39,754 nucleotides of DNA from Deltaproteobacteria bacterium (GTDB lineage Bacteria > Myxococcota > JACPTQ01): the NCBI GenBank assembly GCA_016192705.1, contig JACPTQ010000052.1, forward strand, positions 1 through 39,754, given 5' to 3'. Below, in pieces: positions 1 to 39,754 of this stretch. Within the stretch, counting starts at the first letter, position 1. Every line of letters starts with the position of its first letter. The notes below the pieces were generated by a model, which was not told where the DNA came from, ran no database searches, and saw only the letters and a program-made list of their open reading frames with translations. The position numbers were made by a program, and so were the translations under genes.

Positions 1-21
1 CACGCCCCATCGGCACCTCAT

Positions 22-119
22 CCCCTGCGCAAAGGTGCGCTGCGGGCTCCGTTCCGTCGCCCTCGCGATTCTGTTCGCGCCGGCAAGCCACAGGCTTGCC
101 AACGATTGCTCACAGAATA
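22..119 (+). repeat. Module A palindromic repeat, copy 1
   Basis: This is the first copy of a roughly 80-100 bp dispersed element also found at 16565-16663 (inverted) and inside proS at 5892-5972. The core is an 8-bp inverted repeat GGCAAGCC/GGCTTGCC (82-89 and 93-100) around a 3-nt loop. Outer arms ATTCTGT (68-74) and ACAGAAT (112-118) extend the palindrome to about 50 bp. The left flank, from CCCCTGCGCAAAGG at 22, is shared with the 16565 copy. The stretch 120-245 between this repeat and module B shows no gene I can support. Confidence 0.85.
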
Positions 120-245
120 TGCGAGCCTTCGCTTGCCCAATCACCGTCCGCCCATTCAGATCTCGGCCGTTTCCCTGGAACGGCGCGTGAGAGACTTGGG
201 GGTCGATCGAACGGTGGCCGACACCCAAAAGGTGAATCCTTCGTG

Positions 246-358
246 CCGCCCTCAAGCACAGAGAACACGTCCCCGGAAAGCGGTCCGCCCGCATTTGCGT
301 AGGGTCGGCAGGGGCGCCGCGCAGGCGCGCATCCGCAGGGTCTGCAGCGCGATATCGG
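246..358 (+). repeat. Module B repeat, copy 1
   Basis: This approximately 113-bp intergenic repeat contains GTAGGGTCGGCAGGGGCGCC and GCAGGGTCTGCAGCGCGATA. Nearly identical sequence occurs at 16478-16563 (same strand) and at 39681-39754 (opposite strand, cut by the window end). The short ORFs running through it are not conserved as proteins between copies, so I treat it as non-coding. Confidence 0.85.
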
Positions 359-417
359 CTGGGACCTTCGAGCTTTCGCGTGCCTCTGAACCTTGGAATT
401 GATCGCACGTCTTAAAT

Positions 418-499
418 CAGACCCGAGGACGTCGGCGCGCCGAAGCGGGCTCCTGTCGACCCTCACGCTCGAGAGCGAACCAACCGCTTAACCGGGGAT
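418..499 (+). repeat. Module C repeat, copy 1 (82 bp)
   Basis: This 82-bp repeat runs from CAGACCCGAGGACGTCGG to CCGCTTAACCGGGGAT. Copies of exactly the same length are at 16740-16821 (plus) and 39540-39621 (minus). Differences cluster in the GAGCGAAC region. Like the other two clear copies it ends shortly upstream of a gene start in the gene's own orientation, here 66 nt before the ATG at 566. Confidence 0.9.
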
Positions 500-565
500 G
501 AAGGGCGAGTCGGCAGTGAATAAATCCCCTCATCCTACGTCTAATAACTGCACGGAGGATTGGAC

Positions 566-4373: not shown

Positions 4374-5022
4374 CCGGGTTCTCCGATTCGATGACCGGTC
4401 GCCCAACGACGACGTAGTCGGCGCCCGCTGCGATGGCGTCTCGCGGCGACGCGACGCGCGCTTGGTCGTGCGCGAGCGCTCCGGCTGGGCGTACGCCCGG
4501 TGTAATAATGATCGACCCCGGGAAAGTGCGCCGCAAAGGGCCCGCCTCCCACGCTGACGCGACGAATGCGCGCACGCCCGACTCGTACGCGACGCGCGCA
4601 AAAACGAGGACGTCCGCCTCGGTCGCGTTCAAGCTCGTGAGCACGGTCACCGCCACGACGCGCATTTCGCCCGCCTCGCGAAGCGCTGCGCGAATCATTT
4701 CGCCGCCGCCCGCGGCGTGCACCGTCAAGAACTTTGGACCCAGGACCGACACGGCACGCACGGCTTGAGCGACCGTGTTCGGAATGTCGTGGAGCTTGAG
4801 GTCGAGCATCACCTCGACGCCCTTCATCCGAATTTCGGCCACGGCGCGGGGCCCGACGCGCGAAAAGAGCTGAAGCCCGACCTTGTATGCGCCCACAAGC
4901 CCGCGTGTCCGCTCGACCCACTCGAGCGCGGAGTTGAGCGTGTCGACATCGAGCGCGAGGATGATTCGGTCTTGAGGGCGTGGGGCGGATTCAGGGTTCA
5001 TGAGTGTCGTCATCGTGTTCAT
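4327..5022 (-). CDS. pyrF: Orotidine 5'-phosphate decarboxylase
   Basis: The enzyme makes UMP from OMP in the last step of pyrimidine synthesis. The 231-residue TIM barrel carries LALDVD near the N-terminus, the substrate lysine in AYKVGLQLF, the catalytic DLKLHDIPNTV (DxKxxD), TVHAAGG, and phosphate-binding ITPGVRP and VVGRPV. The length is normal for the short bacterial type. The ATG at 5022 overlaps the proS stop as ATGA, so translation is probably coupled to proS. In-frame ATGs a few codons later are alternatives. The unusual partner proS, rather than other pyr genes, suggests no dedicated pyrimidine operon here. Confidence 0.95.
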   Translation of the reverse strand: MNTMTTLMNPESAPRPQDRIILALDVDTLNSALEWVERTRGLVGAYKVGLQLFSRVGPRAVAEIRMKGVEVMLDLKLHDIPNTVAQAVRAVSVLGPKFLTVHAAGGGEMIRAALREAGEMRVVAVTVLTSLNATEADVLVFARVAYESGVRAFVASAWEAGPLRRTFPGSIIITPGVRPAGALAHDQARVASPRDAIAAGADYVVVGRPVIESENPVETLQTIATQIAAPN

Positions 5023-6848
5023 ATTTCGACCGCCTTCGCAACCTCGGCCGCGATCCACGCGACCGCCTCCTCGGGGGCCATCAGCACGGCCTCCTTTTGC
5101 GAGCGCCATTTCACTTCAACTTTGCCGGTTTCGAGCGTCTTTTTCCCAATCGACACGCGCAGCGGCAATCCGATGAGGTCCGCGTCCTTGAACTTGACGC
5201 CGGGGCGCTCATCACGATCGTCAACAAGCACTTCGACTCCGCGCGCCTCGAGCGCTCGCTCCATCTCGTCCGCGATCGCGGCTGTTTTCGCGCCGTCTCC
5301 GGTTGGCGAAAGGAGCGGCAAAATCGCGACATGAAACGGCGCAATCGACATCGGCCACACGATTCCGTCTTTGTCGTGCGACTGCTCGATCGCCGACGCC
5401 ATCGTCCGTGTGACGCCGATGCCGTAACACCCCATCACAAACGGCGCGTCGTTTCCGCCCGCGTCCTGATACACCGCGTTCATCGCGCGCGAGTACTTGT
5501 CGCCGAGATAAAAAACATGTCCGACTTCGATCCCGCGATGTGTTTTCAAATGCCCGTCGGCGCACCGCGGGCACGGATCGCCGACCGCGGCAACGCGCAA
5601 ATCCGCGACCTGCGTCGGTTTTGCGTCGCGTCCCCAAACGCAGTTCTTCACGTGCGCATCGGTTTGATTCGCGCCCGAGATAAACGTCTCGAGTGCGGCC
5701 GCGTCGTGGTCGACGTAGACCGGCAGATCGAGCCCGACCGGCCCCGCAAATCCAACCGCCGCGTGGGTTGCGCGCGTGACCTCCTCGTCGCTTGCGAGCT
5801 CGACCGTTCCCGCGCCCAGTAAGAGCTTCAGCTTCACCGGGTTTGCTTCGTGGTCGCCACGCACGCACAGCGCCGCCAACATCGTGTGGGTTGCGCCCTC
5901 CGTTCCGTCGGGCTCACCATTTCGCTCGCGCGGGCCAGCCACCGGCTTGCCCGCAGACCGCTCGCGAAATTCGTCCACCCGCACAATCAGCGTCTTCACA
6001 AACTCGCGCGCGCTCGCCCCCATGAACGCCGCCACCTCCTCCACCTTCCCCTTTCCCGGCGTCGCAACAACTTCTTTTTCCTTTCTCCTCTGGTCTCCAA
6101 AACTCTGTGACTCTGTGGTTTCTCCCCTCTTCCCCACCGCTGCTTTCTCCGCATTCGCCGCGTAGGTGCACGCATCGCACGCGAAGATCAAATCCTCGCC
6201 ACTCTCCGCGAGCACCTGAAATTCATGCGACGACGATCCGCCGATGTTCCCCGTGTCGGCCTCGACCGCGCGAAACTCAAGCCCGCACCGCCGAAAGATT
6301 GCGCCATACGCGTCGAACATTTTTTGATACGCGACCATTGCCGCCGCCTGGTCGACATCGAAGCTGTACGCATCCTTCATGATGAATTCGCGCCCGCGCA
6401 TAAGGCCAAACCGCGGCCGAATCTCGTCGCGAAACTTCGTCTGGATTTGGTACAGATTGAGCGGCAGCTCGCGGTACGACCGCACATCCGCGCGCACCAT
6501 GGCAACGACGACTTCCTCGTGCGTCGGTCCAAGGCAAAAGTCGGTGTCCTTCCGATCTTTAAGTCGCAACAGCTCAGGCCCGTATTTCGTCCACCGCCCC
6601 GACTCTTGCCAGAGCTCGGCCGGGCAAACGACCGGCATATGAACTTCTTGCGCCCCCGCGCGATTCATCTCCTCGCGAATGATCTGCTCGACCTTTCGCA
6701 CCGCGCGCCACCCAAGCGGCAAAAAGTTGTAAATCCCCGCGGCGACTTTTCGAATCATGCCCGCGCGCAAAAGCAGAATGTGACTCACGACCTGCGCTTC
6801 GGCGGGCGCCTCTTTGAGGGTTGGGACGAGCAATTGGGATCTTTTCAT
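5019..6848 (-). CDS. proS: Prolyl-tRNA synthetase with in-frame repeat insertions
   Basis: This is a bacterial-type class II synthetase that charges tRNA-Pro. It starts MKRSQLLVPTLKEAPAEAQ, has motif 2 around FRDEIRPRFGLMR, a YbaK-like editing insert in the middle, motif 3 at MGCYGIGVTR and an anticodon-binding domain ending in the VDDRDERPGVKFKDADLIG region. At 609 residues it is longer than E. coli ProS (572). The excess lies largely in the editing domain: after KTLIVRV about 27 residues are encoded by dispersed module A (5892-5972), before the conserved CVRGDHE. A second odd stretch (GETTESQSFGDQRRKEKE) is encoded by another repeat type. I chose ATG 6848 over GTG 6857 because it fits the family start and lies 7 nt after a -10 box. 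It heads the operon with pyrF and rlmB. Confidence 0.95.
   Translation of the reverse strand: MKRSQLLVPTLKEAPAEAQVVSHILLLRAGMIRKVAAGIYNFLPLGWRAVRKVEQIIREEMNRAGAQEVHMPVVCPAELWQESGRWTKYGPELLRLKDRKDTDFCLGPTHEEVVVAMVRADVRSYRELPLNLYQIQTKFRDEIRPRFGLMRGREFIMKDAYSFDVDQAAAMVAYQKMFDAYGAIFRRCGLEFRAVEADTGNIGGSSSHEFQVLAESGEDLIFACDACTYAANAEKAAVGKRGETTESQSFGDQRRKEKEVVATPGKGKVEEVAAFMGASAREFVKTLIVRVDEFRERSAGKPVAGPRERNGEPDGTEGATHTMLAALCVRGDHEANPVKLKLLLGAGTVELASDEEVTRATHAAVGFAGPVGLDLPVYVDHDAAALETFISGANQTDAHVKNCVWGRDAKPTQVADLRVAAVGDPCPRCADGHLKTHRGIEVGHVFYLGDKYSRAMNAVYQDAGGNDAPFVMGCYGIGVTRTMASAIEQSHDKDGIVWPMSIAPFHVAILPLLSPTGDGAKTAAIADEMERALEARGVEVLVDDRDERPGVKFKDADLIGLPLRVSIGKKTLETGKVEVKWRSQKEAVLMAPEEAVAWIAAEVAKAVEI
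5892..5972 (+). repeat. Module A palindromic repeat, copy 3, in frame inside proS
   Basis: This copy closely follows the intergenic copies at 22-119 and 16565-16663, including the stretches CTCCGTTCCGTCG and AGCCACCGGCTTGCCCGCAG. The inner stem GGCCAGCC/GGCTTGCC and outer arms ATTTCGC (5919-5925) / GCGAAAT (5964-5970) are kept; the outer arms differ from the other copies at both pairing sides. The 81 bp equal 27 codons, read on the minus strand as residues around SAGKPVAGPRERNGEPDG. The repeat occupies the place where other ProS proteins have only a few residues between the KTL(L/I)V strand and VRGDHE. Confidence 0.85.
6060..6125 (-). repeat. Purine-rich dispersed-type repeat in frame inside proS
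   Basis: On the minus strand this reads GAAACCACAGAGTCACAGAG followed by an AGAGGAGAAAGG tract. It resembles a purine-rich CACAGAG repeat that I recall from many unrelated bacterial genomes. It is translated here as GETTESQSFGDQRRKEKE between AANAEKAAVGK and VVATPGKGK, at a variable point of the editing domain. No second copy is present in the window, so assignment to that family rests on recognition only. Confidence 0.5.
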
Positions 6849-6916: not shown

Positions 6917-7690
6917 GTGGGAGCGACTCGCGCGCCATGTTCGAGCGTGACGAAAGGGACAGTTCTTTTGGGCGTGGCCGTTGTGGGGTTGGTGGCATGC
7001 GCGCGAACGAATCCCTTTAAGGAGATCGTTTACGTTGTCGCGGACGCGGGAGCGGGGACGGAAGCGGGTTCGGGAGCGCCAACGGGTCCGGGAGCGGACG
7101 CGGGTGCGGATGCGGGAGCGGACGCGGGTGCGGACGCGGGTGCGGATGCGGGAGCGGACGCGGGTGCGGATGCGGATGCGGATGCGGGAGCGGACACGGG
7201 TGCGGATGCGGGCGCGGATGCTGGAGCGGGAGCGGACGCGGGTGCGGATGCGGGCGCCGACGGCGGCATCGACGCGGGTGAGCTTTGGCCGATTGCGACG
7301 CCGTGCGACACGGGAGCCCAATGCCTGAGCGGCTTTTGCGCATCGGGTGTTTGTTGCAATCAAGCCTGCAACGCGTGGTGTGAGCGCTGTATCGGCTCTG
7401 TCGGTGACGCCGGGGTTTGTCGAACGGCGGTGCGAATTCAAAACGACGGCGGTCTCAACCTGACTAATTCAGCCGACGCTGGCCACCACTTCTTTCACCC
7501 GGCGATCATCGCCGACGCAACGCACGACGTCGTCGCGTGGGTGAGGCGTAATCCGATGGTATGGCAAACACGGAGCCGCGTTGGCGGAGTACATTTACGC
7601 AAGGACAGACCGCACCTCGGGTTCCGGGTCGCAGTGCATTGGCAGTGGGGTAGGCCGGACTGTCGTCCAGAGCGCAGCGCGAGCCGATGA
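6917..7690 (+). CDS. N-terminal part of frameshifted lipoprotein with Ala/Gly/Asp spacer
   Basis: GTG 6917 lies 7 nt after a -10 box; a GTG at 6947 is an alternative. A lipoprotein signal peptide ends in the lipobox LVAC (mature CARTN). Then comes a ~75-residue spacer of repeated Ala-Asp-Ala-Gly built from a 6/12-bp simple repeat, and a Cys cluster (CDTGAQCLSGFCASGVCCNQ, then CNAWCERC) of the type common in Myxococcota surface lipoproteins. Up to about 7540 (FHPAIIADATHDVVAWV) the reading looks authentic. The last ~45 codons do not, and the +1 frame takes over in the next ORF. Full-length product would be ~520 residues. The function is unknown; it is likely an outer-surface protein. Confidence 0.7.
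   Translation: MGATRAPCSSVTKGTVLLGVAVVGLVACARTNPFKEIVYVVADAGAGTEAGSGAPTGPGADAGADAGADAGADAGADAGADAGADADADAGADTGADAGADAGAGADAGADAGADGGIDAGELWPIATPCDTGAQCLSGFCASGVCCNQACNAWCERCIGSVGDAGVCRTAVRIQNDGGLNLTNSADAGHHFFHPAIIADATHDVVAWVRRNPMVWQTRSRVGGVHLRKDRPHLGFRVAVHWQWGRPDCRPERSASR
7037..7270 (+). repeat. GCGGATGCGGGT-type simple repeat
   Basis: These are imperfect tandem 6/12-bp units (GCGGGTGCGGATGCGGGAGC and variants) coding Ala/Asp/Gly. Because units are multiples of 3, copy-number change alters spacer length but not frame. The same unit type occurs in the kinase gene (34928-35185) and weakly in the radical SAM gene (29800-29865), where the opposite strand is coding and the product is Pro/Ala. Confidence 0.85.
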
Positions 7691-15222: not shown

Positions 15223-16230
15223 TTACGCTGCAGTTTCAGGAACCGCGAAGGCGTTTGCGAGAAGTGTTTCCATTTGCTTTTCGAAAGCCTCTCGGATGGC
15301 GAGAAGGCGCGCACGGGCTTCCGCGTCAAAACGCGCGATGACCTTCTCGGCCTTGCACTTGAATTCCGCGCAAAGGAGATCGAAACGCGCACGTTTTTCG
15401 GCGAGTGAGCGCGCGGATGTGACGCGAAGCTGCTCGGCGGCGTCGCGCCATTTCGCGAACAGCGTCTCAAGTTTTTCGGTGGCGCGTTCGACTTTATGGT
15501 GTGCAAGCTTGCGATCGTAGATGTAGAGGTCCGAGGCGAGTCGGAACGCGGCGAACGCGCGCACAACCCACCACCCCAAATCGAATTCGAAGGCGCGCGT
15601 GGAGAACTTCGCGGAGCGCGGGTAGCGATGGTGGTTGTTGTGAAGCTCTTCGCCCGACACGACGAGGCCGAACGGGATGATGTTGGTGCTGCCGTCGTTT
15701 GTGTCGAAATCGCGGTAGCCGATGGCGTGGCCAAAACCGTTGATGATGCCGGCCGCGACGATCGGCGTCCAGACGAGCTGGATCGCGAAGGCGACGAGGC
15801 CGGGCCCGATGTCGAACAGCGCGAGATCGATCGCGCCGAGGAGAACCAGGCAGAGGTTTGGAAATCGCGCGTAGACGTGGCGCTCGATCCAATCATCGGG
15901 GCACCCCTTGCCGTACTTTTCGAGCGTTTCGGGGTCACGCGCGGCGCGCCGGTAATACCAAAGTCCGAAGAAGAAGATGCGCGCGAGGCCATGCACGACG
16001 GGCGAATGCGGGTCTTCGGGCGTGTCGACCGTTGCGTGGTGCTTGCGGTGCACGGCAACCCATTCGCGAATGTTGACGCCGGTTGTGAGCCAAAGACAAA
16101 ACCGCATCGCGTGCGTCACGGCCGGGTGAAACGCGACCGACCGATGCGCCATGGCGCGGTGCGCGTAGAGGCTGAGGCAGAGAATCGAGAGCCAGCCGGT
16201 TAGGCAAGCGACTAAAATGGCGAGAAGCAT
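15223..16230 (-). CDS. Membrane acyl-CoA/acyl-lipid fatty acid desaturase
   Basis: This is a di-iron desaturase of the stearoyl-CoA desaturase-like family, which introduces a cis double bond (usually delta-9) into saturated acyl chains in the membrane. The three His boxes are HRAMAH near residue 24, HRKHH near 61 and HNNHH near 198, separated by hydrophobic helices. From about residue 240 a ~95-residue charged, Ala/Glu-rich helical tail (EKLETLFAKWRDAAEQLR onward) extends beyond the catalytic core and looks like a coiled coil; it is longer than I expect in bacterial homologues. ATG 16230 has AAAGG 6 nt upstream. The gene is single; the region upstream holds a degraded module C and then a repeat cluster. 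Confidence 0.92.
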   Translation of the reverse strand: MLLAILVACLTGWLSILCLSLYAHRAMAHRSVAFHPAVTHAMRFCLWLTTGVNIREWVAVHRKHHATVDTPEDPHSPVVHGLARIFFFGLWYYRRAARDPETLEKYGKGCPDDWIERHVYARFPNLCLVLLGAIDLALFDIGPGLVAFAIQLVWTPIVAAGIINGFGHAIGYRDFDTNDGSTNIIPFGLVVSGEELHNNHHRYPRSAKFSTRAFEFDLGWWVVRAFAAFRLASDLYIYDRKLAHHKVERATEKLETLFAKWRDAAEQLRVTSARSLAEKRARFDLLCAEFKCKAEKVIARFDAEARARLLAIREAFEKQMETLLANAFAVPETAA

Positions 16231-16318
16231 TACGAACCTTTTCCTTTTCGGGGCGGCGGATCATTCGCCGCACCTTTCACCAGTTTACGCTTGTCGACCG
16301 GTTGGCACCAGTATCCCC

Positions 16319-16402
16319 TGATTCCCGGATAACGGGCGACGTTCGCGTGGGGCGGGCGGGGGCTGTGCTCGCTCCGGCTCGCGAAAGTCCTCGGGTCTGA
16401 CA
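16319..16402 (-). repeat. Degenerate module C
   Basis: On the minus strand this region begins TCAGACCCGAGGA like module C and, after ~80 bp, ends in CCGGGAAT where module C has CCGGGGAT. The middle is strongly diverged. It lies upstream of the desaturase gene in the gene's orientation, as the three clear copies do with their genes. The remaining sequence between 16231 and 16477 contains nothing else I can support. Confidence 0.4.
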
Positions 16403-16477
16403 GAAAATGTGAGTCTGCACGAAATGAATCAAACATCATGAGAACGGCAATTCCACGCCCCAGGTGAACTCTTCTAA

Positions 16478-16563
16478 CCGCCCTCAAGCCCAGAAAACAC
16501 GTCTCCGAAAAACGGTCCGCCCGGATTTGCGTAGGGTCGGCAGGGGCGCCGCGTAGGCGCGCC
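16478..16563 (+). repeat. Module B repeat, copy 2 (interrupted)
   Basis: This matches module B copy 1 from CCGCCCTCAAGC through GGCGCCGCGTAGGCGCGC. There the match stops where module A copy 2 begins, and a further B-like stretch (CGCAGGGTCTG) resumes after it near 16656. Module A may therefore be nested inside module B here. Confidence 0.8.
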
Positions 16564-16564
16564 T

Positions 16565-16663
16565 ATTCTGCGAGCGGTCTGCGGGCAAGCCGGTGGCTTG
16601 CCTGTGCGAGCAGAATGGCGAGGGCGACGGAACGGAGCCCGCAGCCCCACCTTTGCGCAGGGT
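16565..16663 (-). repeat. Module A palindromic repeat, copy 2
   Basis: This is an inverted copy of the element at 22-119. The inner stem is GGCAAGCC/GGCTTGCC with a GGT loop; the outer arms are ATTCTGC and GCAGAAT. Read in the frame used in proS, it would give CERSAGKPVACLCEQNGEGD, recognisably the same peptide as in ProS, but here it is intergenic. Confidence 0.85.
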
Positions 16664-16739
16664 CTGAGGTGTCATGTATGCACGGATTTCCATTCATTCC
16701 CATGTTTTCATTTGAGCGACTTGCGAACGGATTGAGGGC

Positions 16740-16821
16740 CAGACCCGAGGACGTCGGCGCGCCGAAGCGGGCTCCTGTCGACCCTCACGCTCACGAGCGA
16801 ACAAACCGCTTAACCGGGGAT
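16740..16821 (+). repeat. Module C repeat, copy 2 (82 bp)
   Basis: The copy runs from CAGACCCGAGG to AACCGGGGAT, with only a few differences from 418-499. It ends 52 nt before the -10 box of the REC-GGDEF gene and points toward that gene. Between it and module A copy 2 (16664-16739) is unique sequence with no recognisable feature. Confidence 0.9.
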
Positions 16822-16870
16822 TGGGCTCCAAGATCGTCTGCGGCGCCGCTGAATCTGGACCGCGCGCATC

Positions 16871-16886: not shown

Positions 16887-17813
16887 GTGTTTGTGATGGG
16901 GGATAACCGCGCCACGATTCGTGTCTTACAAGTTGAGGACGACGCCCTTCAACACGACCTCGTACAGGCACTCCTTCGCCACGCGCAGCATGCGCGATTT
17001 GATTTCGAGCACGTCGATCGGTTGGAGGACGCCCTGCGCCGACTAACCGACCGCGCCTTCGATGTCGTTTTGCTCGACTTTTCATTGCCGGATGGCGTCG
17101 GGCTTGAGATTCTCGACGCCGTGCTTCCGGCGGCAAAAGACGCGGCGATCGTGATTCACACCGGAAGCGACGACCAGGCGCTTGGTCTAGCGGCGCTCAA
17201 TCGCGGTGCCCAGGATTATCTCGTCAAGTCGATAACAGATGGGCGAGCGATGGAGCGCGCGATTCTTTACGCCATCGAGCGCAAGCGGGCGCAGGCGATG
17301 CTTCGACGCACGGAAACGGACCTCGCGTCTTTGGCGCTCATCGATGAACTGACCGGCCTCAATAATCGGCGCGGTCTGTTTCTGCTCGGCGAGCAAACGC
17401 TGAAACTCGCCGCGCGAAATCGCTCGGCCGCCGCTGTCGTTTTCGCCGACGTTGACGGTCTCAAAGAGATTAACGATCGCGCTGGCCATGCCGAGGGAGA
17501 TCGCGCGCTCGTCGATTTTGCGGGGATTTTGCGCGCGACGTTTCGAGACTCCGATGTACTTGGGCGGTTGGGCGGCGACGAGTTTGTTGCGATTGTTGGT
17601 GGTGGCGATGGCGCGGTTTTGCCGGAGCGACTTTTCGCGAACCTCGTAAAGAGTCGTGAACCAAGCGAGTCGTCCTATCGCCTGTCGGTCAGCGTCGGAT
17701 TGGCCGTATTTGACCCCGAGCACCCGCTCACTCTCGCCGAGCTGATTACACACGCCGACGAGGAGATGTATCTGCGGAAGCGGCAGGCGGGTCGCGCGCA
17801 GTGGCAACGATGA
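16887..17813 (+). CDS. Response regulator with GGDEF diguanylate cyclase output
   Basis: The protein is predicted to make cyclic di-GMP under control of a receiver domain. REC (residues ~8-130) has acidic LQVEDD, phospho-acceptor Asp in VVLLDFSLPDG and the conserved Lys in QDYLVKS. The GGDEF domain (~155-305) has ELTGLNNRRG, FADVDGLKEINDRAGHAEGD and the intact active site RLGGDEF. An RxxD inhibitory I-site (RDSD) precedes it by five residues, so product feedback is expected. The start is GTG 16887 at the -10 spacing; ATG 16896 is an alternative. The stop overlaps the ATG of the histidine kinase gene (ATGA), making that kinase the likely partner. Confidence 0.9.
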   Translation: MFVMGDNRATIRVLQVEDDALQHDLVQALLRHAQHARFDFEHVDRLEDALRRLTDRAFDVVLLDFSLPDGVGLEILDAVLPAAKDAAIVIHTGSDDQALGLAALNRGAQDYLVKSITDGRAMERAILYAIERKRAQAMLRRTETDLASLALIDELTGLNNRRGLFLLGEQTLKLAARNRSAAAVVFADVDGLKEINDRAGHAEGDRALVDFAGILRATFRDSDVLGRLGGDEFVAIVGGGDGAVLPERLFANLVKSREPSESSYRLSVSVGLAVFDPEHPLTLAELITHADEEMYLRKRQAGRAQWQR

Positions 17814-34563: not shown

Positions 34564-36462
34564 TCAGCGTTCGCGGGGCTTGATGATGAGCTTGTTGTCG
34601 CTGTCCGGGAGGACAGTGATTTCGCGCGTCTCGACGGGCGTGCCGGCTGCGTGGCGAATCGTAACGATTCGTTTCCCGGAACGAACGCCGTGAATTTTTG
34701 TGACGGGGAGCGGCAGGTCGAGCGCTTTTCCGTCAAGGAGGACCGTCACGCCGTCGGGTGCTCGGACGACGAGCGTCCCGGTGCGCGGTGGCTCTGGCGC
34801 GGGGCGAGGAGCGGGCGCGGGGGCGGATGGCAGGTCGAGACGCGCGGCGGCGGCACTGGGCGCAGATGGTCGTGCGCGTTGCTTCGGAGCGCGGCGCGGC
34901 AAATCGTCGCGGGTGCGCCGGGCGTCCATGCGGGATGCGGGAGCGGGTGCGGGAGCGGGTGCGGGAGCGGGAGCGGCGGCGGGTGCGGGAGCGGGAGCGG
35001 GTGCGGGAGCGGCGGCGGGTGCGGGTGCGGGAGCGGGAGCGGGAGCGGTTGCGGGGATTTGACGCAAAGGCGCCGGGACGCCAAGAAGAGAAGGAGCTGT
35101 TTTAGCGTCTTTGCGGCTTTGCGCCTCTGCGTTGAAATCCCCTGCGGGCGCGGGTGCGGGAGCGGGTGCGGGAGCGGGTGCGGTTGTTCGATCGGACAAC
35201 GCAAACACGAGCGCCACGACCGCAGTGGCCGTCGTTGCTGCAGCGCCCACCCAAGCACGCGTCTTTCGACTTCGTGGCTGGGCGGGCAGCGCCTCACCCG
35301 AGACGGTGTTTGTCGCGGTGTGGGCAATGCGGTCGGCCGTCGCGCGCGCGCGGCTCGCTTCTCCGATTCCCTTTTGCTTCAACGCCTTCCCAGGTTCTGG
35401 CGTGGCGGTGCGCGTGTCGGCTTGCCACGTGCCTGGCACGACCGTCGGATCTGGAAGCGATTTCGCCTCGGTTGCCGTCAGCACCTGCGTTGGCTCGCGC
35501 GTCCGATTTTCGTCGGCCTCGCCGCCAAACAAAAAACTCATCCACTCGCCGAGCGTCGACTCGTCGGCGCCGCCAAGCGTCGCGATCGCCCGCCCCACTT
35601 CGCGCACCACTTCGTCAGCCCCCTGAAACCGGTCGTCCTTTTTTCGCGCCAGCAGCTTCGACACGATTTCCCACGTCCCATCGCTTTCGCTGCTCGACTG
35701 CAATCCATCCGGGACTTTCGGTGTCCCCATGAGTATCCGCGCGAGGACTTCGCTGTCCGAATCGCCTTGAAACGGCTTTTCGCCGTACAGCATTTCAAAG
35801 AGCACGATCCCAAGCGCGAAAAGATCGCTCCGCGCGTCGATCGACTCACCGGCCGCCTGCTCAGGCGACATGTAGGTGATCTTCCCTTTGAGCACGCCGG
35901 TGCGCGTCATTCCCGCGCGGGACGTGGCTTTTGCGATGCCAAAGTCGGAAATCTTCACCTCGCCCGAGTACGACACGAGGATGTTGTGGGGCGATATGTC
36001 GCGGTGGACGATCCCGAGGGGCACGCCATCGACGCGTCGTCCGTGCGCGTAAGCGAGGCCCCGCGCCACTTCGCGTGCAATGTGAAGTGCGAGCGCAGGC
36101 GCCAAGCGTTTTCCGACACGCCGCGCCTTCTCAAGGATGCGCCGCAAATCGTGACCGTCAACAAACTCCATCGCGAGATAAAAAACACCGTCGACCTGGT
36201 CAAACTCGTGAACCTGAACGATGTTCGCGTGTTGCAGCCGGGCGACAAGCTTCGCTTCGTCTTGGAACATCCGCACAAATTCATCGTCCTCGCCAAACTG
36301 CGGCAGGATGCGCTTGATGACGACCTCTTTCTCGAAACCCGCGGCACCAAACGACTTCGCGAGAAAAACCTCGGCCATGCCGCCAACCGCAAGTCGACGA
36401 ACGAGCGTGTACTTGCCGAAGGGCTGCGGCGCGATCTCATGCATTCTTGACGTAAGTGACAT
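34564..36462 (-). CDS. Ser/Thr protein kinase with Pro/Ala linker and PEGA-like tail
   Basis: The start is ATG 36462 (MSLTSRMHEIAP); 36492 and 36444 are alternatives and ribosome-binding sites are weak. The Hanks kinase domain (residues ~15-275) is complete: LAVGGMAEVFLA glycine loop, VIKRIL Lys, catalytic HRDISPHNILV, DFGIAKA, and SPEQAAGE. After a ~130-residue linker comes a transmembrane helix (WVGAAATTATAVVALVFAL). Outside it lies a Pro/Ala spacer split by a 90-bp palindromic repeat coding FNAEAQSRKDAK, then a PEGA-like module (TLVVRAPDGVTVLLDGKAL, IVTIRHAAG). The cytoplasmic kinase is thus coupled to an extracytoplasmic PEGA domain. The likely substrate-recognising partner class includes FHA proteins. 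It has no obvious operon. Confidence 0.9.
   Translation of the reverse strand: MSLTSRMHEIAPQPFGKYTLVRRLAVGGMAEVFLAKSFGAAGFEKEVVIKRILPQFGEDDEFVRMFQDEAKLVARLQHANIVQVHEFDQVDGVFYLAMEFVDGHDLRRILEKARRVGKRLAPALALHIAREVARGLAYAHGRRVDGVPLGIVHRDISPHNILVSYSGEVKISDFGIAKATSRAGMTRTGVLKGKITYMSPEQAAGESIDARSDLFALGIVLFEMLYGEKPFQGDSDSEVLARILMGTPKVPDGLQSSSESDGTWEIVSKLLARKKDDRFQGADEVVREVGRAIATLGGADESTLGEWMSFLFGGEADENRTREPTQVLTATEAKSLPDPTVVPGTWQADTRTATPEPGKALKQKGIGEASRARATADRIAHTATNTVSGEALPAQPRSRKTRAWVGAAATTATAVVALVFALSDRTTAPAPAPAPAPAPAGDFNAEAQSRKDAKTAPSLLGVPAPLRQIPATAPAPAPAPAPAAAPAPAPAPAPAAAPAPAPAPAPAPASRMDARRTRDDLPRRAPKQRARPSAPSAAAARLDLPSAPAPAPRPAPEPPRTGTLVVRAPDGVTVLLDGKALDLPLPVTKIHGVRSGKRIVTIRHAAGTPVETREITVLPDSDNKLIIKPRER
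34928..35185 (+). repeat. GCGGGTGCGGGAGC simple repeat in kinase gene, split by a palindrome
   Basis: Tandem 6/12-bp units (GCGGGTGCGGGAGCGGGAGC and variants) cover 34928-35052 and 35143-35185, coding Pro/Ala on the minus strand. The 90-bp palindromic element at 35053-35142 interrupts the array. The unit resembles the Ala/Asp/Gly repeat at 7037-7270. Confidence 0.8.
35053..35142 (-). repeat. 90-bp palindromic dispersed-type repeat in frame in kinase gene
   Basis: The ends are long inverted arms: GGGGATTTGACGCAAAGGCG at 35053 pairs with GCCTCTGCGTTGAAATCCCC ending at 35142 apart from a few mismatches. The central part repeats GCAAAG/GTCTTTGCGGC units. It is 30 codons long and translates as DFNAEAQSRKDAKTAPSLLG; NAKAQRRKDAK-type peptides from CGCAAAGGCGCAAAG repeats are known to me from many bacterial genomes, so this is probably a mobile or amplified element, not kinase sequence. 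It lies within the Pro/Ala spacer, which tolerates insertions. Confidence 0.7.
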
Positions 36463-36596: not shown

Positions 36597-37940
36597 TCAT
36601 TGTGCGATCTCCGCCTTCAGCGCGCGCGCCTTCTCAGTTTCGCCGGCGCGTTCGGCGGCGAGTCGCATCGCCTTCAAAAACGCTCGCCTGTTGCCAAGGC
36701 GTGCGGCGCAGCCTTCGAGATGCGTGAGGGCCAGGGCGGGCCGGTCGGCCAGCGCATACGCGCCCGCGTGGAGTCGACAGATTTCGGGTGAAAGGGGGTA
36801 AGCGCGCGCGGTGTGCTGCCAAAGCGCGACGCCGTTTCGCCAAATCTCGGTTTGCGTGAGGCAAAACGGTGCGAAGGTGAGCGGAAGGACCGCAGCGGCG
36901 ATGAAACGGACGGATCGCGCGAGGCTTGTGGTTGCGCGCGCAAGCGCAAGCGCGATCAGCGCAGCGACGAAGACGAGCGGGAGATAGAGGTGTGCGTCGC
37001 CGACGTCGTGCGTCATCGGGATGATGTTGGCCCCAGGCGCGAGGGCGGCGCCGAAAAGGAGCAGCAGTGGCCAGGCACGCGATGCACGACTGCGGCGAAG
37101 AAGGACAAACGCGACGAGCGCAACGACGCCGGCGATACCGATGATCGCGGTCGCGTCTGTCCAGGAGGGCGTGTCGTGGATGTAGACGGGGCGCAGGTCA
37201 AACGGTGGGAAGAAGAGCGTAAACTTGAGGCCCAGCGTCAGAAAGACGCGTAAGGGAAAGGGGGCGACGGCATCTTTAGCGATGGCGAGATGAGCCGCAG
37301 GCGATGCGGCCATGAAAACAGACAGTCCGACGACGATCATGAGCGACGGGAGGATGGCAAGAATCGACCGCCGCGAGAATCCGCGAATCAAGACGACGGC
37401 CACGGGAATCGCGAAGACGCTCGCCTTAGAAAACGCCGCGCAAACAAAGAGCATGTTCGCAAGCACATCGGTGCGCAGGGTCGGGCCGCGGGCGAGCCAA
37501 TGATAAAGCGCGCCAAGTGCGAATGTCGTTGCGAGGAGGTCTTTGCGACCGACAATCCAGCTCACAGGCTCCGCGACAAGCGGATGCGTCGCGAAAATGA
37601 GTGCGCCCACAACAGCGAAGAGGCGCGCGATGCCCAAGCGCGGAAGCAGCATGAAGACGAGGACGACGTTCAGTGCGTGCAGGAAGACGTTGACGGCATG
37701 ATACCCAGCCGGGGTGAAGCCGTGGAGCGCGTGGTTGAGCGAGTAAGTGAGGTTCGTGACGATTGTGGTGTAGCCGAGGGAGTTCCAAAACGACGAGGCG
37801 GAAGGGTCGGGGGCGGCGATGTTGGGGTTTCGCCAGAGGTGGTCGAAGTCGTCCCAGTTGACAAAGTCAAAGCCGACGGTGTGCGCGAAGAGCGCGGCGG
37901 CGAGGGCGAAAAGAACGAGTGGTAGTGGGCGCGCCTTCAT
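36597..37940 (-). CDS. GT-C type multi-spanning glycosyltransferase-like protein (TMTC-like)
   Basis: The start is ATG 37940, overlapping the stop of the upstream gene (ATGA); GTG/ATG further upstream are rejected. It is ~447 residues with about ten transmembrane helices. After the first helix, DFVNWDDFDHLWRNPNI carries the acidic pair that is the catalytic site of GT-C enzymes. The later HPLVAEPVSWIVGRKDLLA is the signature of TMTC/PMT-like proteins. The soluble C-terminal ~70 residues (PEICRLHAGAYALADRPALAL onward) look like a short TPR. It probably transfers a sugar from a polyprenyl carrier outside the inner membrane. No acceptor is indicated. Confidence 0.8.
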   Translation of the reverse strand: MKARPLPLVLFALAAALFAHTVGFDFVNWDDFDHLWRNPNIAAPDPSASSFWNSLGYTTIVTNLTYSLNHALHGFTPAGYHAVNVFLHALNVVLVFMLLPRLGIARLFAVVGALIFATHPLVAEPVSWIVGRKDLLATTFALGALYHWLARGPTLRTDVLANMLFVCAAFSKASVFAIPVAVVLIRGFSRRSILAILPSLMIVVGLSVFMAASPAAHLAIAKDAVAPFPLRVFLTLGLKFTLFFPPFDLRPVYIHDTPSWTDATAIIGIAGVVALVAFVLLRRSRASRAWPLLLLFGAALAPGANIIPMTHDVGDAHLYLPLVFVAALIALALARATTSLARSVRFIAAAVLPLTFAPFCLTQTEIWRNGVALWQHTARAYPLSPEICRLHAGAYALADRPALALTHLEGCAARLGNRRAFLKAMRLAAERAGETEKARALKAEIAQ

Positions 37941-39484
37941 GGTGGAAGCGTACCTTGGAACGGTATCCAAGTTTCGACACAGATGTGCGTTGCGCGCGGA
38001 TCGCACGTTCCGTTCGTTGCCGGGTCACGCGGAAACCACCTGAGAGCGTAGATCGGGAGAATCTCGTTGGGCGCCTCTTTCCCGGGGTACAGCCACGTCT
38101 TCACGAGCACCATTGTGACGCCAGGCGCCGCGATCGATTCGACGTCGTCTGGAATCGGAAGGCCGTACCGTCGGAAGGTCATGCGCCCCCAATGGATGGA
38201 AATTTTCTGTCGTGTGTAAAAAATCTGTGCGGGCGCGCCAAAGTCGTAGATGTAAAACGTTGTGTCTTGTTCATGGAAATTTCGCTCGCGCGGATAAAAC
38301 GCGTGCATGGTGCCGAGCAATGTGACGGGCGCCGCCGGGTTTTTCGTCGCGATCGCGCGAGCGGTTTTTCCGTGGTGGTCGCTTCGGTAAAAGGGGTCGG
38401 TGAGGCGCGCCATCTCTGGGACGACGCCCGCGAAGAGAACCAACGCAGCGAGCACGGCTGCTACAGGGCGAACACGGTGGAGCGAGGCGAGACCAAAGCC
38501 TTGCGCGAGGGCGAAAATCGGCAGGAGCGGAATGAGATAGCGGGCTTCGACGTACCCAGGGACGAAGAGGAAGCCGAGGAAAACGAGACCGCCGACGAAT
38601 GGGCCTGCGACCGGGAGCGTGGGGCGGCGTCGCAAGAACTCCACGGCGCCGATCGCAATGAGGACGACCCCCGCAGGAGTTAGCGATTCCCAGATGAACG
38701 AAAAAACGATGAGCGGCGGTTGCGAAGAGGCGTGGACGGCGTCCCAGTATCCGATGAGAATCCGCACGACTTCGACGAGACCGGAAAAAAAGTCGACGCC
38801 CTTTTCCAGCGCGAGAAGAGTCCCCGTGGCCAATGCGTAAAGGGCGAGTCCGCCGAAGCTTGCGGCCGCGGCGTTCCGCGCGGCGCGAAGGCGAGTTCCC
38901 TGGGGCGGTCGCACGACGCCAACAATGAGGCTGACAATGGGGATGAGCGCGACTTGTGGGCGGCCGAGGGCGCAAAACGCGAGGATAAGCGCGCGGAGTA
39001 TGAGTTGCCGCCAACGGATTTCCTTCTCTCGCTCGGTGTCCCAGAACCATAATGCGACCGCGAGGGCGGAGGCGAGGTCCGGCATTGCGAACGGCGCGAA
39101 GTGGATGAAGAGCCGATTCCACGCGATGACACCGATGAGGATGGTGAGCGGCAGCGTCGGAAGGCGGCGCCGAATCCACAGCGCGGTGACGACAAGGAGC
39201 GCCAGGTGCAAGAGGAACGTCGCGCCGTGGTAAACGATGAGGTCGGGGTAGGCCCCCGCAAAGCGAAACGGTGCGAAGAGGAGTGCGAAGAACGCGACGG
39301 CGAAAAAGTTCTTTGGGTACGAAATCGTGTTGGGTTCGCCCCAAAGGTGCCAGCTCGAAACGATGAGGTCGTACGTGTCGTAATAATCGAGGTCGATGGC
39401 GATCGCCGCCCAGCCAAGAAACGCCGCCGTGGCGATGGTGAGTGCACCGGCGATTCTCGTGACGACCGGGGTCGCGCGGTCCAT
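37937..39484 (-). CDS. GT-C type membrane glycosyltransferase-like protein (GT39/ArnT-like)
   Basis: The start is ATG 39484, 7 nt after a -10 box; the longer frame is rejected. The 515 residues have a first transmembrane helix followed by DLDYYDTYDLIVSSWHLWG with the acidic residues expected of GT-C enzymes, then about nine hydrophobic helices and an extracytoplasmic C-terminal domain of ~160 residues (FYRSDHHGKTARAIATKN, RNFHEQDTTFYIYDFG). The family and substrate are unassigned. Translation of the next gene is coupled through ATGA. Both genes lie directly downstream of module C copy 3. Confidence 0.75.
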   Translation of the reverse strand: MDRATPVVTRIAGALTIATAAFLGWAAIAIDLDYYDTYDLIVSSWHLWGEPNTISYPKNFFAVAFFALLFAPFRFAGAYPDLIVYHGATFLLHLALLVVTALWIRRRLPTLPLTILIGVIAWNRLFIHFAPFAMPDLASALAVALWFWDTEREKEIRWRQLILRALILAFCALGRPQVALIPIVSLIVGVVRPPQGTRLRAARNAAAASFGGLALYALATGTLLALEKGVDFFSGLVEVVRILIGYWDAVHASSQPPLIVFSFIWESLTPAGVVLIAIGAVEFLRRRPTLPVAGPFVGGLVFLGFLFVPGYVEARYLIPLLPIFALAQGFGLASLHRVRPVAAVLAALVLFAGVVPEMARLTDPFYRSDHHGKTARAIATKNPAAPVTLLGTMHAFYPRERNFHEQDTTFYIYDFGAPAQIFYTRQKISIHWGRMTFRRYGLPIPDDVESIAAPGVTMVLVKTWLYPGKEAPNEILPIYALRWFPRDPATNGTCDPRATHICVETWIPFQGTLPP

Positions 39485-39491
39485 GCGCGAG

Positions 39492-39497
39492 AGCATA
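39492..39497 (-). promoter_or_regulatory. -10 box of GT-C operon
   Basis: Minus-strand TATGCT lies exactly 7 nt before ATG 39484. No good -35 is visible. Module C copy 3 ends ~43 nt upstream. Confidence 0.45.
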
Positions 39498-39539
39498 CAG
39501 GTTTTTTCGCGCGGCGAACGCTCGTTGCAACGCACCCCA

Positions 39540-39621
39540 ATCCCCGGTTAAGCGGTTCGTTCGCTCGTCAGCGTGAGGGTCGACAGGAGCCCGCTTCGGC
39601 GCGCCGACGTCCTCGGGTCTG
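39540..39621 (-). repeat. Module C repeat, copy 3 (82 bp)
   Basis: Minus-strand copy of the element at 418-499, again 82 bp, from CAGACCCGAGGACG to TTAACCGGGGAT. It reads toward the GT-C operon start at 39484. 39622-39680 between it and module B is unique sequence. Confidence 0.9.
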
Positions 39622-39680
39622 AACGCGAACGAGCGCTCGAGCCACTGTTTTCTGGCGTGCGAAATCTCGGAGATTCGCAT

Positions 39681-39754
39681 CCGATATCGCGCTGCAGACC
39701 CTGCGGATGCGCGCCTGCGCGGCGCCCCTGCCGACCCTACGCAAATCCTGCCGG
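39681..39754 (-). repeat. Module B repeat, copy 3 (cut by window end)
   Basis: The minus strand reads ATTTGCGTAGGGTCGGCAGG through GCAGCGCGATATCGG, as in 292-358. The order B then C on this strand is the same as in the other two clusters. The window ends inside the copy. Confidence 0.85.

Follow-up and report, generated by a model that had tools for sequence, protein, structure and literature searches.

A MITE-like family of ~550-bp elements with unusually strong promoter-upstream placement in a Myxococcota genome

Described repeat families and their relation to the element

The Correia elements (CREE) of Neisseria duplicate TA and have subtypes with promoters of their own. REP elements are not known to generate target duplications; their associated transposases are of the RAYT type. 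Correia elements have been described as MITEs of ~204 bp that occur in >120 copies per genome, bear terminal inverted repeats and are mostly located immediately upstream of genes (PMC10969869). Chunjie (Geobacter uraniireducens), QMITE (Coxiella) and ERIC are further families that are non-coding, intergenic and variable in size, with dozens to hundreds of copies per genome (PMC10969869).

Our analysis of a stretch of 39,754 nucleotides (hereafter the window), which is the complete contig C8 of a 5.21 Mb genome in 88 contigs, points to a new MITE-like family with an unusually strong promoter-upstream placement. The element shows terminal inverted repeats and a target-site duplication of fixed length (8 bp), and it is short, non-coding and present in many copies, as is typical of MITEs. 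Its closest resemblance is to Correia elements, with which it shares copy number, terminal inverted repeats and location upstream of genes. However, its ends are unrelated and the promoter-like boxes lie in the flanking DNA, and we rejected an assignment to Correia elements on length (~550 vs ~204 bp) and duplication (8 bp vs TA). Chunjie, QMITE and ERIC differ from the element in size and are likened to it by description, terminal sequences and promoter distance aside. Intergenic palindromic modules in a mosaic arrangement are also reminiscent of BIME/REP mosaics, but identity with REP/BIME was rejected on account of the 8-bp duplications, and the element also bears terminal inverted repeats. 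Two successive searches of the phylum, in 39 and in 195 genomes, gave no credible element match. An exact pattern match was found neither in the named genomes searched, a set from which near relatives are perhaps left out, nor in viral contigs, and plasmids gave no credible match.

Architecture, copies and insertion scars

The preliminary description of the window had reported an 82-bp module upstream of genes (module C), and its three copies, at 418-499 (plus strand), 16740-16821 (plus) and 39540-39621 (minus), were confirmed and are 95-98% identical to each other. The full extent of the repeated unit was determined from the sequence upstream of 26 copies and from a profile search in which a 553-nt sequence served as reference. 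Module C forms the right-hand end of a non-coding MITE-like element of ~550 bp, and a stand-alone 82-bp regulatory module was therefore rejected; the 82 bp look like a fixed unit because they are bounded by the element end on one side and by a hypervariable hairpin loop on the other. The following features were identified in the window:

1..504, plus strand: element 1, internal part and right end (nhmmer, 113-500 to consensus 163-549)
29..125, plus strand: nested ~95-bp repeat in element 1, at consensus ~170 (nhmmer, 84.9 bits; the element match starts after the repeat)
418..499, plus strand: first copy of module C, forming the right arm of element 1 (aligns to the consensus right end; next predicted start at 566)
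16316..16826, plus strand: complete element 2 (distances of 86 and 70 nt to the flanking starts)
16316..16402, minus strand: left arm of element 2 (matches the right arm in inverted orientation at a distance of ~340 nt)
16571..16645, minus strand: nested repeat in element 2, in opposite orientation, at consensus ~387 (inverted repeats; split element match)
16740..16821, plus strand: second copy of module C, forming the right arm of element 2
39535..39754, minus strand: right-hand part of element 3 (nhmmer, 39751-39536 to consensus 338-552)
39540..39621, minus strand: third copy of module C, forming the right arm of element 3 (predicted gene 37937-39496, minus strand, starts 39 nt away)

Elements 1 and 3 are incomplete, since the contig starts inside the former, whose left end is missing, and its end cuts the latter, whose left half is missing. 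Element 2 occupies a divergent gap between genes assigned by domain search to a desaturase (15223-16230, minus strand) and a REC-GGDEF protein (16896-17813, plus strand), and its flank duplication, compared by eye, is degraded (GGCACCAGTATC / GGCTCCAAGATC). The stretch 16319-16402, previously taken for a degraded fourth copy of module C, proved instead to be the inverted left end of element 2, and other copies show the same inverted-arm arrangement at ~380 nt.

The terminal inverted repeats are imperfect (5'-CCCYGATYCCCGG...), with CCCTGATTCCCGGATAACGG at the left terminus and CCCCAATCCCCGGTTAAGCGG (reverse complement) at the right. The left end begins CCCTGATTCCCGG and bears the arm as a diverged copy in inverted orientation, GTCCTCGGGTCTGAC. 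The two terminal hairpins consist of related arms in inverted orientation, and folding gave a long hairpin from each half of the reference. In the right hairpin, alignment columns 335-402 pair with 477-549 around a hypervariable loop of ~74 nt (columns 403-475; pairwise identity median 0.65, minimum 0.28). The inner arm adjoining this loop is near-invariant with a mean column identity of 0.99, compared to 0.84-0.86 for the outer ends, which lie nearest the genes. Pairing holds in 97.8% of the cells of the right hairpin, and 6 of 42 pairs are changed on both sides, compared to 1.6 in shuffles that ignore relatedness (0/500). Variants of the G-U and A-C type occur at 26:15 in the right and 12:19 in the left hairpin, with no consistent strand bias. 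We read the pairing as that of maintained inverted repeats, without clear sign of a functional transcript. As a side observation, the right loop between the near-invariant arms occurs in three or more strongly divergent sequence types, as if loops had been exchanged.

The whole genome contains 251 matches to the end pattern (three or fewer mismatches; 0 for the reversed control). In a 2.35 Mb sample, right and left ends are equally frequent among such matches (76 and 74), which corresponds to ~125 elements in the genome. About 30 of the 88 contigs start within ~600 bases of an element end. The element is therefore a frequent cause of assembly breaks in this genome, and ~125 is probably an underestimate because contigs so often break at it. 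Pairwise identity between 33 uninterrupted copies ranges from 64 to 93% (median 82%), so that the family is old and includes subfamilies.

Exact 8-bp target-site duplications (e.g. AAGTTTTG, ATTATAAT, TCTGGACG and AGGGCACA) flank 34 of 62 complete copies, compared to 0.02 for randomly paired flanks. Because the copies, judged by their median identity, are not recent, our argument for transposition is built on these scars. No reading frame is conserved, since the longest ORF varies between 85 and 177 aa among copies and the copies differ by 1-nt gaps. A search by paired ends for a longer, autonomous partner with the same ends found none in 2.35 Mb (45% of the genome), and six DDE transposase families (PF01609, PF12762, PF00872, PF03050, PF01610 and PF13610) had 0 matches in the whole genome.

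Placement relative to genes and its possible causes

Gene starts were taken from a codon-usage gene finder (1554 genes, 85% coverage of the sample) and are predictions made without RNA data. The sample was partly chosen for element-bearing regions; the placement tests are conditional on the elements and take their background from gaps within this sample, so that the resulting bias should be small. In the window, the right ends lie ~62, 70 and 39 nt from predicted starts (566, 16896 and 39496, respectively), and each of them faces a gene start. The broader claim that module C always follows the orientation of the gene does not hold genome-wide: of 62 right ends, 48 (77%) face a gene start, as do 42 of 57 left ends (74%), and in tandem gaps the end facing the gene is the right or the left one at 12:10 (p=0.83). 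The apparent orientation arises because the elements favour divergent gaps, with 35, 25 and 3 elements in divergent, tandem and convergent gaps compared to 18, 33 and 11 expected by length (p=9e-6). The real placement bias is symmetric.

The suggested distance bias was strongly borne out. The median distance to the nearest start codon is 53.5 nt compared to 179 nt for simulated random intergenic insertion (p=1e-13), an element end often falls ~40-65 nt from a start codon, and only 10% of copies have their nearest start 150 nt or more away (45% in the simulation). Complete copies almost never disrupt predicted genes, although genes make up 85% of the sample. Outside the element ends, TTG[AC] occurs at 0.026 per position within 0-14 nt compared to 0.009 at 15-35 nt (p=4e-4), and hexamers resembling a -10 box are most frequent 20-50 nt out. 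Such a pattern would be expected of elements that lie directly upstream of -35 boxes. However, part of the -35 signal may reflect a general target preference, because the enrichment of CAA at the ends (p = 0.004) nearly equals that of TTG. When presence or absence of an exact duplication is used as a rough measure of copy age, copies with and without it are placed alike (median 49.5 vs 57.5 nt to the start; divergent gaps in 19/32 vs 13/25).

We consider it very probable that module C is the right end of a non-autonomous, MITE-like DNA transposon (~550 bp), whose location upstream of promoters more likely than not reflects a target preference of its machinery. Of the three readings first proposed for module C, the terminal inverted repeats, the 8-bp duplications and the promoter-proximal placement support that of a mobile element with a target-site preference. 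A DDE-type transposase acting in trans, perhaps since lost, presumably moved the element. Such machinery would prefer DNA just upstream of promoters, be it AT-rich, bent or associated with RNA polymerase; insertions there would leave the core promoter intact, and selection would remove those within genes.

The same MITE might alternatively have inserted at random and owe its placement to selection alone, with survivors where they do least harm. We regard this as rather unlikely. The near absence of complete copies from predicted genes agrees with it, but harmlessness alone predicts a spread into long and convergent gaps, and both the scarcity of copies at 150 nt or more from a start and the 3 convergent gaps compared to 11 expected speak against it. 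The equal bias of copies with and without exact duplications likewise speaks for target preference rather than gradual purging, though it is no proof. Taken together, this equal placement and the avoidance of long and convergent gaps, which are presumably harmless, lead us to favour target preference over selection alone, if only by a modest degree. A stronger version, in which the integration machinery recognises promoters as such by way of RNA polymerase, a sigma factor or the DNA shape upstream of the -35 box, is offered as a tentative possibility. If this were true, the element would land safely between divergent genes and break neither promoter, similar to eukaryotic elements that target tRNA-gene promoters. 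Being measured against a null of random insertion, the placement offers a case in which promoter-directed integration in bacteria can be tested.

That the host has domesticated the element, keeping copies as regulatory or insulating sequences that separate divergent promoters or supply binding sites upstream of -35 boxes, appears improbable to us. The divergent-gap and distance biases and the near-invariant inner arm of module C would suit such a role. However, the upstream regulatory element that the preliminary description envisaged as pointing at its gene loses its main argument with the missing orientation bias, the copies bear 8-bp insertion scars, conservation is lower at the outer ends, which lie nearest the genes, than in the inner arm, and the like placement of copies with and without exact duplications gives no sign of sorting by selection over time. 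Finally, a structured non-coding RNA, with the plus strand transcribed and the right hairpin acting as RNA, is very unlikely, as its paired arms and two-sided changes (few in number, and judged against shuffles blind to relatedness) are set against the inconsistent G-U to A-C ratios of the two hairpins, a near-palindromic element of which both strands fold, and Rfam covariance models without a match at gathering score (0 in the window).

Nested and other repeats

The nested ~95-bp repeat adjoins CCCTGCGGA and has 34 matches in the 2.35 Mb sample; in the window it occurs at 29-125 and 16571-16645. It sits in ~20 elements, at one of two mirror-image sites (consensus ~170 and ~387) and in opposite orientations. 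Another 14 matches have no element assigned to them; these include matches in element fragments at contig ends and others within predicted genes, and in the window a weak copy (5886-5969) is located inside predicted gene 5019-6848 (minus strand).

A second family of ~385 bp is represented by C10:113048-113432 and C45:56549-56932, and has the terminal sequence CCCTCATCCCCGGTTAA in common with the ~550-bp element. One 8-bp duplication in its flanks is exact (ATAGGTCG), which adds to the case for a transposon, and the other has one mismatch (TCTAGAAT/TTTAGAAT). The window furthermore contains arrays of 12-bp repeats of the GCGGGTGCGGAT type at 7006-7314 and 34879-35097, both overlapping predicted genes.
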